Assembly: GCF_000337095.1 (NCBI RefSeq)
Contig: NZ_AOIV01000023.1
Coordinates: 1 to 57,533 of the forward strand
Direction: 5' to 3'
DNA: 57,533 bases
Origin: Halogeometricum pallidum JCM 14848
Lineage (GTDB): Archaea > Halobacteriota > Halobacteria > Halobacteriales > Haloferacaceae
In this document: one piece after another, positions 48,161-55,063 of the stretch
Position numbering within the stretch: the first letter of the stretch is position 1
Layout: every line of letters begins with the position of its first letter
The notes under the pieces: model-generated
What the model was told of the DNA's origin: nothing
Seen by the model: the letters and a program-made list of their open reading frames with translations, nothing else
Databases searched by the model: none
Position numbers and translations under genes: made by a program

Positions 48161-48380
48161 GCGTTCACGTACCCCGGCCGGCGCGGAAAAGGATGTCGTT
48201 CGCGGGCGTCGACGGGGATTCCGCCGGTTCAGCCCGTGACGCACCGGGAGCGTCTCGGAAGGATTGCCCGCACCGGGCGGGCCGTTCGACCCGACGTCGG
48301 CGTCGGATTCGACGGCGGCGAGAAGAGAACACGCGAGCGGGCACCGCAGGTTGAAATACCGTGCCGGACCACTCTCGGAC

Positions 48381-49682
48381 ATGAGTCTGGGCGCGGCCAA
48401 CGCGATACCGGTCACCATCCTGACGGGGAGCCTCGGCGCCGGCAAGACGACGCTCCTGAACCGCATCCTGCGGAACGCCGGCGACCGGAAGGTGGCCGTC
48501 CTCGTCAACGACATGGGCGAGTTGAACGTCGACGCCGAACTCGTCAGCGAGGAGTCCGAACTGTCCGTCGCCGACGGCACCGTCGCCGAGTTGTCGAACG
48601 GCTGTATCTGCTGTGAACTCCGCGACGACCTCGAAACCGCCGTGGTCCGCCTCGCCCGCGAGCGCTCGTTCGACCACCTCGTCGTCGAACCCTCTGGAAT
48701 CAGCGAACCCGCGCCCGTCGCGCGCCTGTTCACCGGCGGGTCGCCCGCGGCCGCCCGGTACGAGGTGGACGCCGTCGTCGCCGTCGTCGACGCTCGGCAG
48801 TTCGCGGACACGTTCGACGGCGACGGCGAACCGACGAGGACCGTCGAGACGGGCGGCGACGGCGAGCGTCGCCCCCTCTCGGACCTCCTGGTCGAGCAGG
48901 TGGAGTTCGCCGACCTCGTCGTCCTGAACAAACGCGATTTGGTGAGCGAGGCCGAACTCGCGCGCGTGAAGTCGGTCGTTCGCGCCCTGCGACCCGACGC
49001 CGAAGTCATCCCCGCGGAGTACGCCGCGGTGTCGGTCGACCGACTGTTCGACATCCGCCTGTTCGACCCGGGGACGGCCGCCGAACGCGCCGGGTGGCGG
49101 CGGACGCTTGATGAGGCGGAGTCGGAGTCGGAGTCTGCATCGGCGGCGCACGGCGACCATCGCGACCACGAGCACAGCCACAGCCACGACAACAGCCACG
49201 AACACGCCCACCCCGAGGAGGCGTACGGCGTCGACTCGTTCGCCTACCGGCGTCGGCGGCCGTTCCACCCGGAGCGAGCGGCGGCCCTCCTCTCGGACCT
49301 CCCCGAGTCGGTCCTCCGCGCGAAGGGGTCGATGTGGGTCGCGGGGCGCGAGGACGCCCACCTCACCTACAGTCGGGCCGGGCCCTCGGCGTACGCCGAG
49401 GCGACGGGCCGGTGGGTGGCGAGCCTCCCCGAGTTCGAGCAGGACGCCTACCGGCGGAACCGCTCGGACCTCGGGTTCGAGTGGGACGAGGAGTGGGGCG
49501 ACCGGCGCACGGGATTGGTGTTCATCGGCCGCGAAATGGACGAGGGGGCGCTGACCGCCGCGTTGGACGACTGTCTGCTCACCGACGAGGAGTTCTCCGC
49601 GGAGTGGGACGCCTTCGAGAACGCCTTCCCCGAGGAACCCGGCGCGCGGACGACGTTAGCGGAACCGACGCCCGAGGAGTGA
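48381..49682 (+). CDS. CobW/COG0523 GTP-binding metallochaperone
   Basis: A 433-residue G3E GTPase. Walker A is GSLGAGKTT (16-24). The CxCC metal site is NGCICC (C75, C77, C78), VVEPSGISEPAP is switch-like, and NKRD is the G4 motif. A His-rich linker (HGDHRDHEHSHSHDNSHEHA, about 255-275) precedes the C-terminal domain (SFAYRRRRPFHPERAAALL...KGSMWVAGR). Zinc or another transition metal is the likely cargo. Divergent from the ArsA-type operon. Confidence 0.92.
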   Translation: MSLGAANAIPVTILTGSLGAGKTTLLNRILRNAGDRKVAVLVNDMGELNVDAELVSEESELSVADGTVAELSNGCICCELRDDLETAVVRLARERSFDHLVVEPSGISEPAPVARLFTGGSPAAARYEVDAVVAVVDARQFADTFDGDGEPTRTVETGGDGERRPLSDLLVEQVEFADLVVLNKRDLVSEAELARVKSVVRALRPDAEVIPAEYAAVSVDRLFDIRLFDPGTAAERAGWRRTLDEAESESESASAAHGDHRDHEHSHSHDNSHEHAHPEEAYGVDSFAYRRRRPFHPERAAALLSDLPESVLRAKGSMWVAGREDAHLTYSRAGPSAYAEATGRWVASLPEFEQDAYRRNRSDLGFEWDEEWGDRRTGLVFIGREMDEGALTAALDDCLLTDEEFSAEWDAFENAFPEEPGARTTLAEPTPEE

Positions 49683-51774: not shown

Positions 51775-53487
51775 TCAGTCGTCGGCGGGGGTGCCGGCGG
51801 AGGGCGCGTTCGACGATGGCTCCTGACGCGCCCGCGCGACCGACTCCCAGCGCTCGCTCGACCCGCGGAGGAACCCGACGAGCGTCCGAAACACCACGAA
51901 ATCGAGGAACTGCCGGTAGCCGACGACGTGGAACGGGACGTACGCGAGCAGTCGCCAGTCGCCCCCGGACACGTCGAGCGCCGTCGCCGCGACGAGCGAG
52001 AGGACCACGACGAAGTAGCCGGTGGCGAGAGCGACGGAGAGGAGAGTGCCGTGGAGCGCCGCGCCGATTAACGTCGCCGTGACCAACATCCCCGCCAGCG
52101 GGACGAACAGCAGCGAGCACGCCCACAGGGGGAACGTAAACCGGTGGAGAGAGCCGTACGCAGGCGTCCAGAGCACGTCGCGATGCTTGCGGAGCGTCTG
52201 GACGTTTCCGCGGGTCCAGCGGAGCCGCTGGTGGAGGAGGTCCGCGAAGGAGAACGGCGCCTCCGTGTAGACGACGCCCTCGGACAGTTCCACCCGCCAA
52301 CCGGCTTTCAGGAGTGTGAGCGTCAGGTCGAAGTCCTCGGTCACGGTGTCGGGGTCGTAGCCGCCGACGCCGACCAGCGCCTCGCGGCGGAACGCACCGA
52401 GACAGCCGGGGACGACCATCACCGACCCGAGGTGGGAGAACGCGCGTCGGAGCGTGTTGATGCCGAGGACGTACTCCAACGCCTGCACGCCGCCGACGAC
52501 GCCCTCGGGGTTGTCGATGACGACGGTCCCCGCGACGGCGCCCAGTTCGGGGTCCGCGTCGAGTTTCGCCACTGCCGTCCGGAGCGCCCCGGGGTCGAGG
52601 ACGCTGTCGGCGTCGACGGTGACGACGAACTCGCCGCGGCCGCACGAGAGCGCGAAGTTCAGCGCGGCGTGCTTGCCGCCGTTCGCGCGGTGGTACACGG
52701 ATACTCGGTCGTCGCGGTCACGGTAGGCGGCCGCCTCCGCGTACGTGCCGTCGGTGCTCCCGTCGTCGACGACGAGCACCTCCATCCTGTCGGCGGGGTA
52801 GTCGGAGGCGAGTATCGACTCGATGCAGGCGCCGACGTAACCGGACTCGTTGTACGCGGGGACGAGCACGCTCACGAACGGCGCGTCGCCGCCGAACGTC
52901 TCGTCCGGTTCGGGGCGACTGCGGACCTGCGCGAACGTCAGCGGAACGACCACCGCGACGAGACAGGAGACGACGAGAAAGCCCGCGAAGACGGCCGACT
53001 CGAACGCCGAGGGGAGGCGCCAGCCGAAGACGGCGCCCGCGGTGAGGCCGAGCAGCGACAGCATGGTGAGTGGCCACGTCGGGACCCGAAGACGCGTCGA
53101 CGCCGCCCGACGGATGTCCCCGCCGAATGCCAGAGCGATCAACCACGGGAGGCACAGCGACGTGAGGAGGGCGAACTCGGCCGCTGCGACCGTGAGCCGT
53201 TCGACGAACGAGAGTGCGCCCGCGAACGCGAGAGCGAGGAACGCGGCGGCGGCGACCCAGACGGGTACCGGGAGGCGGGCGGCGAAGAGCCGGTCGAACC
53301 GCTGCGGCCACCGCTCGGCGGCGAAGAGCAGGGTCGAGAGGACGAGCGCGAAGCCGAGCGGTGCGAGGACGAGCGGGGCCGGAAACAGCAGCATCCCGGC
53401 GAGGACGGCGACGAGGAGGAACAGCAACTGCACCGGGGCGCGACCGGCCCATCGGGCCGCCCGGTCCGACGACGCCGCCTCCGCCAT
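51775..53487 (-). CDS. Processive membrane glycosyltransferase (GT2)
   Basis: A 570-residue polysaccharide synthase. About six membrane helices lie at 16-190, and the catalytic domain at ~200-430. The GT-A motifs are DDGSTDG (241-247), the metal DxD in VDADS (D292, D294), TED (393-395) and QRLRW (420-424), the QxxRW of cellulose, hyaluronan and PNAG synthases. Three to four helices follow (~450-540). It could build and export a beta-linked polymer; the sugar is unknown. The start shares a base with the zinc-ribbon stop (TGATG). Confidence 0.9.
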   Translation of the reverse strand: MAEAASSDRAARWAGRAPVQLLFLLVAVLAGMLLFPAPLVLAPLGFALVLSTLLFAAERWPQRFDRLFAARLPVPVWVAAAAFLALAFAGALSFVERLTVAAAEFALLTSLCLPWLIALAFGGDIRRAASTRLRVPTWPLTMLSLLGLTAGAVFGWRLPSAFESAVFAGFLVVSCLVAVVVPLTFAQVRSRPEPDETFGGDAPFVSVLVPAYNESGYVGACIESILASDYPADRMEVLVVDDGSTDGTYAEAAAYRDRDDRVSVYHRANGGKHAALNFALSCGRGEFVVTVDADSVLDPGALRTAVAKLDADPELGAVAGTVVIDNPEGVVGGVQALEYVLGINTLRRAFSHLGSVMVVPGCLGAFRREALVGVGGYDPDTVTEDFDLTLTLLKAGWRVELSEGVVYTEAPFSFADLLHQRLRWTRGNVQTLRKHRDVLWTPAYGSLHRFTFPLWACSLLFVPLAGMLVTATLIGAALHGTLLSVALATGYFVVVLSLVAATALDVSGGDWRLLAYVPFHVVGYRQFLDFVVFRTLVGFLRGSSERWESVARARQEPSSNAPSAGTPADD

Positions 53488-53798
53488 CAGTCGGACTCCG
53501 CCGCCCGCGGCACGCGCGAGGCGAACGAGACCGGCGCGTCGAACCGGTGGTCGCAGGACGAGCAGTCGTACAGAAAGCCGACGCACCGCAGGTCCTCGTC
53601 CGCCGGCGCGAGCGTCGCGTCGCACTTCGGACAGACGACGGCCGGACCGTCGGCGCCGAAGGCGGCGACGACGTCGACGAACCCGCACCGCACGTGCTCG
53701 AACGCGCCGACCCGCCGAACCCGGCCCTCGCCGCAGTCGGGGCACTCCGGGTCGGCGCGGCGGCTTCGAGAGACCGGCGCGTGTGTTCTCTCCACCAT
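53487..53798 (-). CDS. Zinc-ribbon protein coupled to GT2
   Basis: A 103-residue protein with several Cys pairs: CPDCGEGRVRRVGAFEHVRC, VCPKCDATLAP, then LRCVGFLYDCSSCDHRF. At least two zinc sites are likely. There is no enzyme motif or signal peptide. It is translationally coupled to the polysaccharide synthase and shares a promoter region with the GH26-like gene. A regulatory or assembly role in polysaccharide output is inferred; comparison with TackOD1-type zinc ribbon domains would help. Confidence 0.75.
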   Translation of the reverse strand: MVERTHAPVSRSRRADPECPDCGEGRVRRVGAFEHVRCGFVDVVAAFGADGPAVVCPKCDATLAPADEDLRCVGFLYDCSSCDHRFDAPVSFASRVPRAAESD

Positions 53799-53819
53799 GC
53801 AACTAATATCGAATTTTAG

Positions 53820-53856
53820 ATATATTGTTATCAGTCAGTGACCGCGAAGCGGTCGC
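53820..53856. promoter_or_regulatory. Zinc-ribbon promoter with hairpin
   Basis: AATATAT at 53820-53826 (minus) is 22-28 bases before the zinc-ribbon ATG. Just upstream, GTGACCGC and GCGGTCGC (53838-53856) form a perfect six-base core stem around GAA. The repeat includes GTCAGTGACC at 53834-53843, also found at 23012-23021 before the HTH gene. Confidence 0.4.
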
Positions 53857-53933
53857 GGCGAAATCGGTCGTTTAATCGTCCTCGGACGGTGTAACGGCCG
53901 GTTTAGCGGCGGAGGTGCCGGGGTAGCGGTGTG

Positions 53934-53941
53934 CTACTAAT
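53934..53941 (+). promoter_or_regulatory. TATA-like box of the GH26-like gene
   Basis: CTACTAAT lies 25-32 bases before the ATG at 53966, suggesting a leaderless transcript. Confidence 0.4.
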
Positions 53942-53965
53942 GACGGGTCCGGACGGAGGGCGCGT

Positions 53966-55063
53966 ATGGACCGACGGCAGTTTCTCGGGTTGGTCGGCGC
54001 GTCGGCGGGCGCCGCTGTCGGCGTCGCGGGACTGACGCGGACCGCCTCGGAGACGGGAGCGACGCGGACGGGCGACTTTCTCGCCGGCGTCTCGGTCGAC
54101 CGGCCGACCGTCGAGACGCTCGACCGCTTCGAGCGCTGGACCGGGAAGCGACACGCCGTCGTCACGCAGTACGCCGCCCTCGGGCAGTCCGACGAGGAGA
54201 TAGCGTGGACGATGTCGGTGCTCGAAGCCCTGTGGGAACGGGGGCACGTGCCGATGCTCGTACTCGAACCGACGTTCGGGTCGGAGGCGGCGACACCGAC
54301 CACCGTCTCGGCCGACGTGGCCGCGGGCGACCACGACGGCCGGGTGGACGCGTGGGGCGACGCCCTGACCGACTGGGTCCGCCGCGGGTTCGGTCGCCCG
54401 AACCGACGCCTCTTCGTCGAGTTCGCCCCCGAGATGAACGGCGACTGGGTGAAGTGGGGCGCGCCCGCCGGCGGGTCGACGCCCGAGGACTACGTCGAGA
54501 TGTTCCGCCGGGTGCGCGGCCGCGTGATGTCGACGGGACTCGACGCCTCGGACGTGCAGTGGGTCTGGGGGCCGAACGCCGGCGGCCGCGGCGGCATCCC
54601 GATTCCGCGCTACTACCCCGGCGACGACGCCGTCGACTGGGCGGCCGTCAACGGCTACAACTGGTGGGAGTGGGCCGGGTGGTTCTCGCCCCCGGAGATA
54701 TACGCCAAGGCGTTCGAGCAGGTCCGGAGCGTCACCGACGCGCCCCTCGCCATCACCGAAGTCGCCTGCTCCAGCGAGGTCGGGGGCGGCAACGACCCCG
54801 AGCGAAAGGCGGCGTGGATAGCCGACTTCTACGACTACGTCGTCGCCGAGGACGTGCGACTCGTCTCGTGGTTCGAGCACGCGAAGGAGACGGACTGGCG
54901 CGTCTTCGACGGCGTCCGCGGCACCGACGGGGCGACGGTGGGCGGCGAGACGGTCCGCGTGTACGACGCCTACAAGCGGGTGATGGACCGGGAGTCGACG
55001 CTCGGCGCGCACCCGACCGACCCGCGGCGATTGACTGACAGAGAGTTCCGCGGCGCGTTCTGA
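53966..55063 (+). CDS. Tat-exported GH26-like glycoside hydrolase
   Basis: A 365-residue secreted hydrolase. The N-terminus has a Tat signal (MDRRQFLGLVGASAGAAVGV). The fold is a beta/alpha barrel of the GH26/GH-A type: the acid/base Glu156 is in FAPEMNGDWVKWG, and the likely nucleophile Glu265 in LAITEVACSSE. VNGYNWWEWAGWF and VSWFEHAKETDW supply substrate-site aromatics. Beta-mannanase or related beta-glycanase activity is inferred. Its divergence from a polysaccharide synthase suggests it trims or releases that polymer. Confidence 0.85.
   Translation: MDRRQFLGLVGASAGAAVGVAGLTRTASETGATRTGDFLAGVSVDRPTVETLDRFERWTGKRHAVVTQYAALGQSDEEIAWTMSVLEALWERGHVPMLVLEPTFGSEAATPTTVSADVAAGDHDGRVDAWGDALTDWVRRGFGRPNRRLFVEFAPEMNGDWVKWGAPAGGSTPEDYVEMFRRVRGRVMSTGLDASDVQWVWGPNAGGRGGIPIPRYYPGDDAVDWAAVNGYNWWEWAGWFSPPEIYAKAFEQVRSVTDAPLAITEVACSSEVGGGNDPERKAAWIADFYDYVVAEDVRLVSWFEHAKETDWRVFDGVRGTDGATVGGETVRVYDAYKRVMDRESTLGAHPTDPRRLTDREFRGAF

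Follow-up and report, generated by a model that had tools for sequence, protein, structure and literature searches.

Organization of the locus

The analysed stretch of DNA, hereafter the window, spans 57,533 nucleotides of Halogeometricum pallidum JCM 14848. The genes and features of the module described here are listed in Table 1. An open reading frame check confirmed the three genes and the coordinates given in a first-pass annotation of this DNA, together with the divergent orientation of the hydrolase gene relative to the ribbon-synthase pair. It also confirmed the TGATG junction, in which the stop codon of the zinc-ribbon gene and the start codon of the synthase gene have one base in common, suggesting translational coupling. 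Comparable overlaps were observed in two related loci (L049 and L051) and in several of the fused loci described below. The region between the divergent genes is A+T-rich beside the zinc-ribbon start; it is alike in the window and L048 and aligns poorly with L049 and L051. Among the ORFs neighbouring the window module, no HlyD-like adaptor was recognised. No deacetylase gene adjoins the module, and the single DUF2334 gene of this genome is unlinked to it. Elsewhere in the window, a CobW-like GTPase reading frame was identified; the related genomes L048, L049 and L051 have a comparable gene close to the module.

Table 1. Genes and features in the window.
Feature	Position	Strand	Size	Remark
CobW-like GTPase reading frame	48264..49682			GSLGAGKTTLLN, CICC motif; His-rich stretch
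GT2 membrane synthase gene	51775..53487	-	570 aa	
TGATG stop/start overlap, zinc ribbon and synthase	53485..53489	-		read 53489-53485; coupling predicted
Zinc-ribbon gene	53487..53798	-	103 aa	
Intergenic region, divergent zinc-ribbon and GH26 genes	53799..53965		167 bp	
GH26-family glycoside hydrolase gene	53966..55063	+	365 aa	

The GT2 synthase

The synthase matched the Pfam families Glycos_transf_2 (119 bits) and Glyco_tranf_2_3 (110 bits) above the curated cut-off. Its architecture consists of N-terminal helices, a cytosolic GT-A domain (residues about 200-440) and C-terminal helices. The first-pass annotation had pointed to DxD, TED and QxxRW motifs between membrane helices, and these were located as D292-x-D294, T383-E384-D385 and Q420-R-L-R-W424, with helices on both sides of the GT domain. 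Among 37 synthase relatives, D292, D294, E384, D385, Q420, R421, R423 and W424 are invariant and T383 is nearly so; the loss of motifs in orthologues, which the same annotation had named as a counter-sign, was therefore not observed. In its sequence features, the enzyme has the motif set and flanking helices of a processive GT2 polysaccharide synthase.

The AlphaFold2 (AF2) model of the synthase has a mean pLDDT of 90.6, and its best folds in a Foldseek search of the PDB were cellulose synthase (BcsA) and hyaluronan synthase, a likeness of the model that is suggestive only of polymer-making. The top-scoring NCBIfam model was PgaC/IcaA (TIGR03937), at 172.2 bits against an equivalog cut-off of 422.3, while cellulose synthase CelA/BcsA (TIGR03030) reached 79.5 bits against a cut-off of 699.1. 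No PilZ domain was present among the Pfam matches. As the score is far under the PgaC/IcaA equivalog cut-off, the polymer is not readable from the name of the model.

The main rival for this enzyme is a single-sugar transferase of lipid-linked or N-linked glycans, with the GH26 gene encoding a scavenging enzyme that adjoins it by chance. Among solved structures, a single-sequence search indeed placed the crenarchaeal mannosyltransferase PcManGT (6yv7, E 4.5e-24) closest, and this protein also fits the synthase model with a TM-score of 0.79 by PcManGT length. However, PcManGT has ADD aligned to the TED of the synthase and the alignment stops short of QxxRW, whereas both motifs are kept in the 37 relatives, and these differences favour a polymer synthase. 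A chance neighbour is also at odds with the recurrence of hydrolase and deacetylase partners in several genera. We consider a single-sugar transferase unlikely.

The zinc ribbon belongs to the TackOD1 family

The zinc-ribbon protein matched PF18551 (TackOD1) with 40.6 bits against a cut-off of 32. The first-pass annotation had taken the ribbon for the new element of the locus; it belongs to an already named family, and the candidate of a novel family was dropped because Pfam assigns it to TackOD1. The match covers profile positions 90-161 of 188, corresponding to the C-terminal half. Full TackOD1 has 11 conserved Cys, with five CxxC and HxxC (PMC5847659), while the ribbon has three CxxC and HxxC only; as it represents only the C-terminal half, it is a shortened relative rather than a full TackOD1. 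The domain was named as a response-regulator output domain, REC-wHTH-TackOD1 forms included, and its function was termed obscure in that 2018 paper (PMC5847659). The ribbon has the same HxxC and CxxC pattern as this output domain but no receiver domain.

Eight residues are candidate zinc ligands (C19, C22, H35, C38, C56, C59, C79 and C82), a number that would be sufficient for two zinc ions. In an alignment with 28 relatives, C22, E34, H35, C38, G39, C56, C59, C79 and C82 were invariant and C19 nearly invariant. The AF2 model has a mean pLDDT of 81 with a confident core; a Foldseek search of the PDB with this model returned nothing below E 0.1, and a PDB sequence search gave generic zinc fingers only. 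In a phylum-wide search with PF18551, only weak matches were obtained outside Halobacteria. These were set aside: the translated ones are without the EHxxCG motif and several resemble transcription factor S.

Two further observations concern this family. Across Halobacteria there is a second TackOD1 protein that stands alone, is about 330-376 aa long and has an extra C-terminal region; the genome of the window encodes it (L059:9128-10258, contig 43), and similar genes are present in L094, L097, L099, L103, L104, L107 and L216. No recognised synthase adjoins these genes. Furthermore, L100 and L101 (Halorubrum lacusprofundi plasmid) contain a second, truncated ribbon copy beside repeated near-identical 388-aa ORFs, which looks as if it had been copied and had decayed.

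The GH26 hydrolase

The hydrolase matched GH26 (PF02156) with 25.5 bits against a cut-off of 20.2. Its catalytic Glu pair, E156/E265, is invariant among 16 GH26 relatives and aligned with that of CtLic26A. The protein contains a near-invariant MxRR motif, on account of which a Tat signal was called, the TAT HMM scoring 15.8 bits, just below its cut-off of 16.7; the enzyme is predicted to act outside the cell. The initial description of a Tat-signalled, GH26-type hydrolase with the pair E156/E265 thus holds. The best solved relative was CtLic26A (E 4e-20 by single sequence, 2e-40 by profile), a GH26 lichenase of Clostridium thermocellum ('endoglucanase H'), with mannanases well behind. The two enzymes have the catalytic pair and an NGDW motif in common, and they differ in the residue before the acid/base Glu, which is Pro in ribbon-linked GH26 and His in CtLic26A.

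A search of genome contigs with GH26 alone yielded only four bacterial GH26 proteins, all of them distant, and neither a synthase nor a ribbon was recognised in their vicinity. Not all GH26 relatives were retained as members of the ribbon module, since in about a dozen of the loci examined GH26 is paired with a different GT2 subfamily and no ribbon is present (L054-L057, also L145-L147 and L149-L153). As called, the GH26 proteins of L054, L055, L056 and L057 are without a Tat signal and may therefore be cytosolic.

Conservation and gene arrangements across Halobacteria

Relatives of the GT2 (E <= 1e-60) and of the GH26 were each searched in 391 Halobacteria genomes. GT2 relatives were found at 51 places in 49 genomes and 25 genera, and GH26 relatives in 35 genomes. 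The first-pass annotation had proposed a search for the three-gene neighbourhood, and co-occurrence was found. In the 51 neighbourhoods, all of which were examined, the ribbon lies directly upstream on the same strand at 34 loci, and GH26 lies within about 3 kb of the synthase at 16, with about 0.05 expected by position. Both GT2 and GH26 are present in 17 genomes (Fisher p 3e-8 for co-occurrence; related genomes are counted as independent, so that p-values overstate independence), and their pairing recurs in nine genera. The gene arrangement is conserved well beyond chance. The remaining 17 GT2 relatives have no ribbon, so that not every synthase of the clade requires one, and GH26 is an optional part of the module rather than its core.

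In 23 of the 34 ribbon-bearing loci, a single membrane helix joins the ribbon, within one protein, to a DUF2334 domain, which is deacetylase-like. Halorubrum lacusprofundi encodes this ribbon-DUF2334 form on its plasmid pHLAC01. The fusions shown have basic residues ahead of the helix, which predicts the ribbon inside and DUF2334 outside; the Tat/lipobox-like leader of the DUF2334 protein in L053 is also consistent with DUF2334 outside. Three layouts were distinguished. The first, with a divergent GH26 gene and separate ribbon and synthase genes, is that of the window and of L048, L049, L051, L052, L053, L091 (with one gene in between), L095 and L096. The second has a ribbon-helix-DUF2334 fusion followed by the synthase and sometimes by a PMT-like gene and GH26 (L050, L092, L108 and L160), with further loci of this type without GH26. 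In the third, represented by L047 and L093, a separate TackOD1-type gene, DUF2334 and the synthase are found.

When the presence of the ribbon was mapped onto a tree of 55 synthase domains, 4 changes were required, compared with 15.9 for shuffled labels, and none of the 500 shuffles was as low. This fits an old association of ribbon and synthase with a few losses. Within a ribbon-less clade, a Tat-signalled polysaccharide-deacetylase-like gene was observed after the synthase, with no DUF2334 (L206:6905-8209 and L214:3279-4556). A separate clade is made up of related GT2 synthases from L197, L199, L200, L202, L204 and L210, around which neither ribbon nor GH26 nor DUF2334 was recognised.

TackOD1 and GT2 in bacterial plasmids

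Bacterial TackOD1 proteins were retrieved by searching annotated plasmids with a full-length TackOD1 query, and 13 distinct loci were examined: Methylocystis, Alisedimentitalea, Rhodobacteraceae M382, Roseibium, Palleronia, Phyllobacterium (three), Aminobacter, Plesiomonas, Photobacterium (two) and Aeromonas. In all 13, the TackOD1 gene is directly upstream of a GT2 gene, often overlapping it, with one small ORF between the two in Alisedimentitalea. The Aeromonas GT2 gene spans the start of the record and its sequence was taken across the joined ends; the Photobacterium GT2 was identified by ORF position and tree, the record being without a gene table. Most of the loci also contain an HlyD-type adaptor, annotated or detected by Pfam.

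Pfam confirmed TackOD1 in nine proteins of these loci. Those of Roseibium and Palleronia also contain a receiver domain, and those of Plesiomonas and Aeromonas a GGDEF domain; in the Plesiomonas sequence the GGDEF motif is not intact. The metal-ligand positions of the archaeal ribbon and bacterial TackOD1 align, position 35 being Cys or His. The GT2 enzymes encoded by these operons group together in a single separate clade of the tree, the exact placement of which is unsure because of long branches. The position of TackOD1 upstream of GT2 in both bacteria and archaea strengthens the idea, inferred from gene context, that the ribbon regulates the synthase.

These data bear on two other roles for the ribbon. 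As a small zinc-ribbon protein beside a divergent promoter, from a family named for response-regulator outputs that include REC-wHTH-TackOD1 forms (PMC5847659), it could be a DNA-binding regulator of that promoter instead of a synthase partner. Yet the DUF2334 fusions tether it to the membrane in most ribbon-bearing loci, it remains upstream of GT2 even where a divergent GH26 is absent, and the bacterial forms adjoin the same class of enzyme, while Pfam detected no HTH in the proteins scanned. A DNA-binding role is thus distinctly improbable. The second possibility appears rather unlikely to us: here the ribbon would play no part in signalling and would instead help the synthase or the deacetylase to fold, to remain stable or to obtain metal. 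Tight gene overlap and fusion would suit any type of partner, and no input domain was seen in haloarchaea, where regulation of the synthase is an interpretation of context; several bacterial versions, however, have receiver or GGDEF-like domains, which indicate signal input. The ribbon also persists without an adjacent deacetylase, for example in the window.

Proposed function and significance

We propose, with a probability of roughly 60%, that the locus encodes a synthase-dependent surface-polysaccharide module in which the TackOD1 ribbon regulates the synthase as its partner in the cytosol and the polymer is trimmed by GH26 outside the cell. From gene content, conserved order, fusions, motifs and fold resemblance, we infer polymerisation, ribbon-synthase contact, regulation and trimming. 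The GT2 enzyme would most likely polymerise sugar at the cytosolic side, with the chain threaded through its own membrane helices. The ribbon, presumably small, cytosolic and co-produced with the synthase, most likely binds this enzyme and switches or gates its activity; in bacteria, a receiver or degenerate GGDEF domain joined to TackOD1 would feed in the signal. The Tat-exported GH26 would cut or trim the chain outside the cell, and in many relatives acetyl groups would be removed from the chain by DUF2334, which a membrane helix connects to the ribbon. The proximity of GH26 to CtLic26A and the deacetylase partners give a weak hint of a beta-linked, gluco-configured and possibly acetylated polymer. 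A synthase-dependent polymer module had already been suggested in the first-pass annotation, and co-occurrence, the kept motifs and the frequent addition of a deacetylase-like gene, a feature known from other synthase-dependent systems, support it. The gene arrangement is real, conserved and wider than that sequence-only view.

More tentatively, and at somewhat less than even odds, TackOD1 might serve in Bacteria and Archaea alike as a domain dedicated to controlling GT2 polysaccharide synthases. Bacteria would use it to relay phosphorylation or c-di-GMP signals to the synthase, and haloarchaea would have retained the half with the zinc ribbon, often linked across the membrane to a deacetylase, without the need for PilZ or GGDEF domains.

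In the literature searched, which is part of all literature, no paper on a synthase-dependent polysaccharide route in haloarchaea was found, nor any on a haloarchaeal GH26 exopolysaccharide or on links between zinc fingers and biofilms. In a described haloarchaeal exopolysaccharide system, the transferases were likened to PimA, a GT-B enzyme (PMC5467301). The component families are already known; their combination, above all the TackOD1-GT2 link that recurs in both Bacteria and Archaea, seems not to have been described in the literature searched. With a conserved synthase module, the question of haloarchaeal polysaccharides becomes open to gene deletion, and the evidence offers a concrete, testable job for TackOD1. 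It also connects genes of archaea with a type of biofilm machinery found in bacteria; TackOD1 is not named in the Mxd papers (PMC3691769, PMC3409153, PMC7666153). The presence of TackOD1 relatives at the same place in bacterial biofilm-type operons suggests a shared, so far undescribed, control of the synthase.

Comparison with known systems

In Shewanella oneidensis, mxd mutants are without a three-dimensional biofilm; MxdB is like a membrane glycosyltransferase and MxdC like an efflux pump, and MxdA binds c-di-GMP and interacts with CheY3 (PMC3691769, PMC3409153, PMC7666153). MxdA has a degenerate GGDEF domain (PMC3409153) and is reported to act as an effector of c-di-GMP that probably prompts the Mxd machinery to make polysaccharide (PMC7666153). 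The described order of mxdABCD is matched by the Plesiomonas and Aeromonas plasmid operons (TackOD1/GGDEF-like protein, GT2, HlyD adaptor), and MxdA itself is a candidate carrier of TackOD1. The window has in common with these plasmid operons the TackOD1-type gene directly upstream of GT2, but it contains only half a TackOD1, has neither a degenerate GGDEF-like or receiver domain nor an HlyD-like adaptor, and includes an additional GH26.

With PgaC/IcaA and PgaB of the poly-N-acetylglucosamine system, the haloarchaeal loci have in common the logic of synthase, secreted hydrolase and deacetylase, although the haloarchaeal hydrolase is GH26, the deacetylase is DUF2334 and the synthase lies far below the equivalog cut-off. 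The window resembles BcsA with BcsZ in the GT2 fold class found by Foldseek and in the secreted hydrolase beside the synthase, but the CelA model score is far below its cut-off and no PilZ domain was found. The closest bacterial GT2 domains found (36-39% identity) are those of CE4-GT2 proteins on Kocuria and Novosphingobium plasmids, where GT2 is joined to a polysaccharide deacetylase domain and the Kocuria gene adjoins an annotated chitinase. In contrast to the window, no TackOD1 was seen at these loci, and their hydrolase and deacetylase belong to other families.
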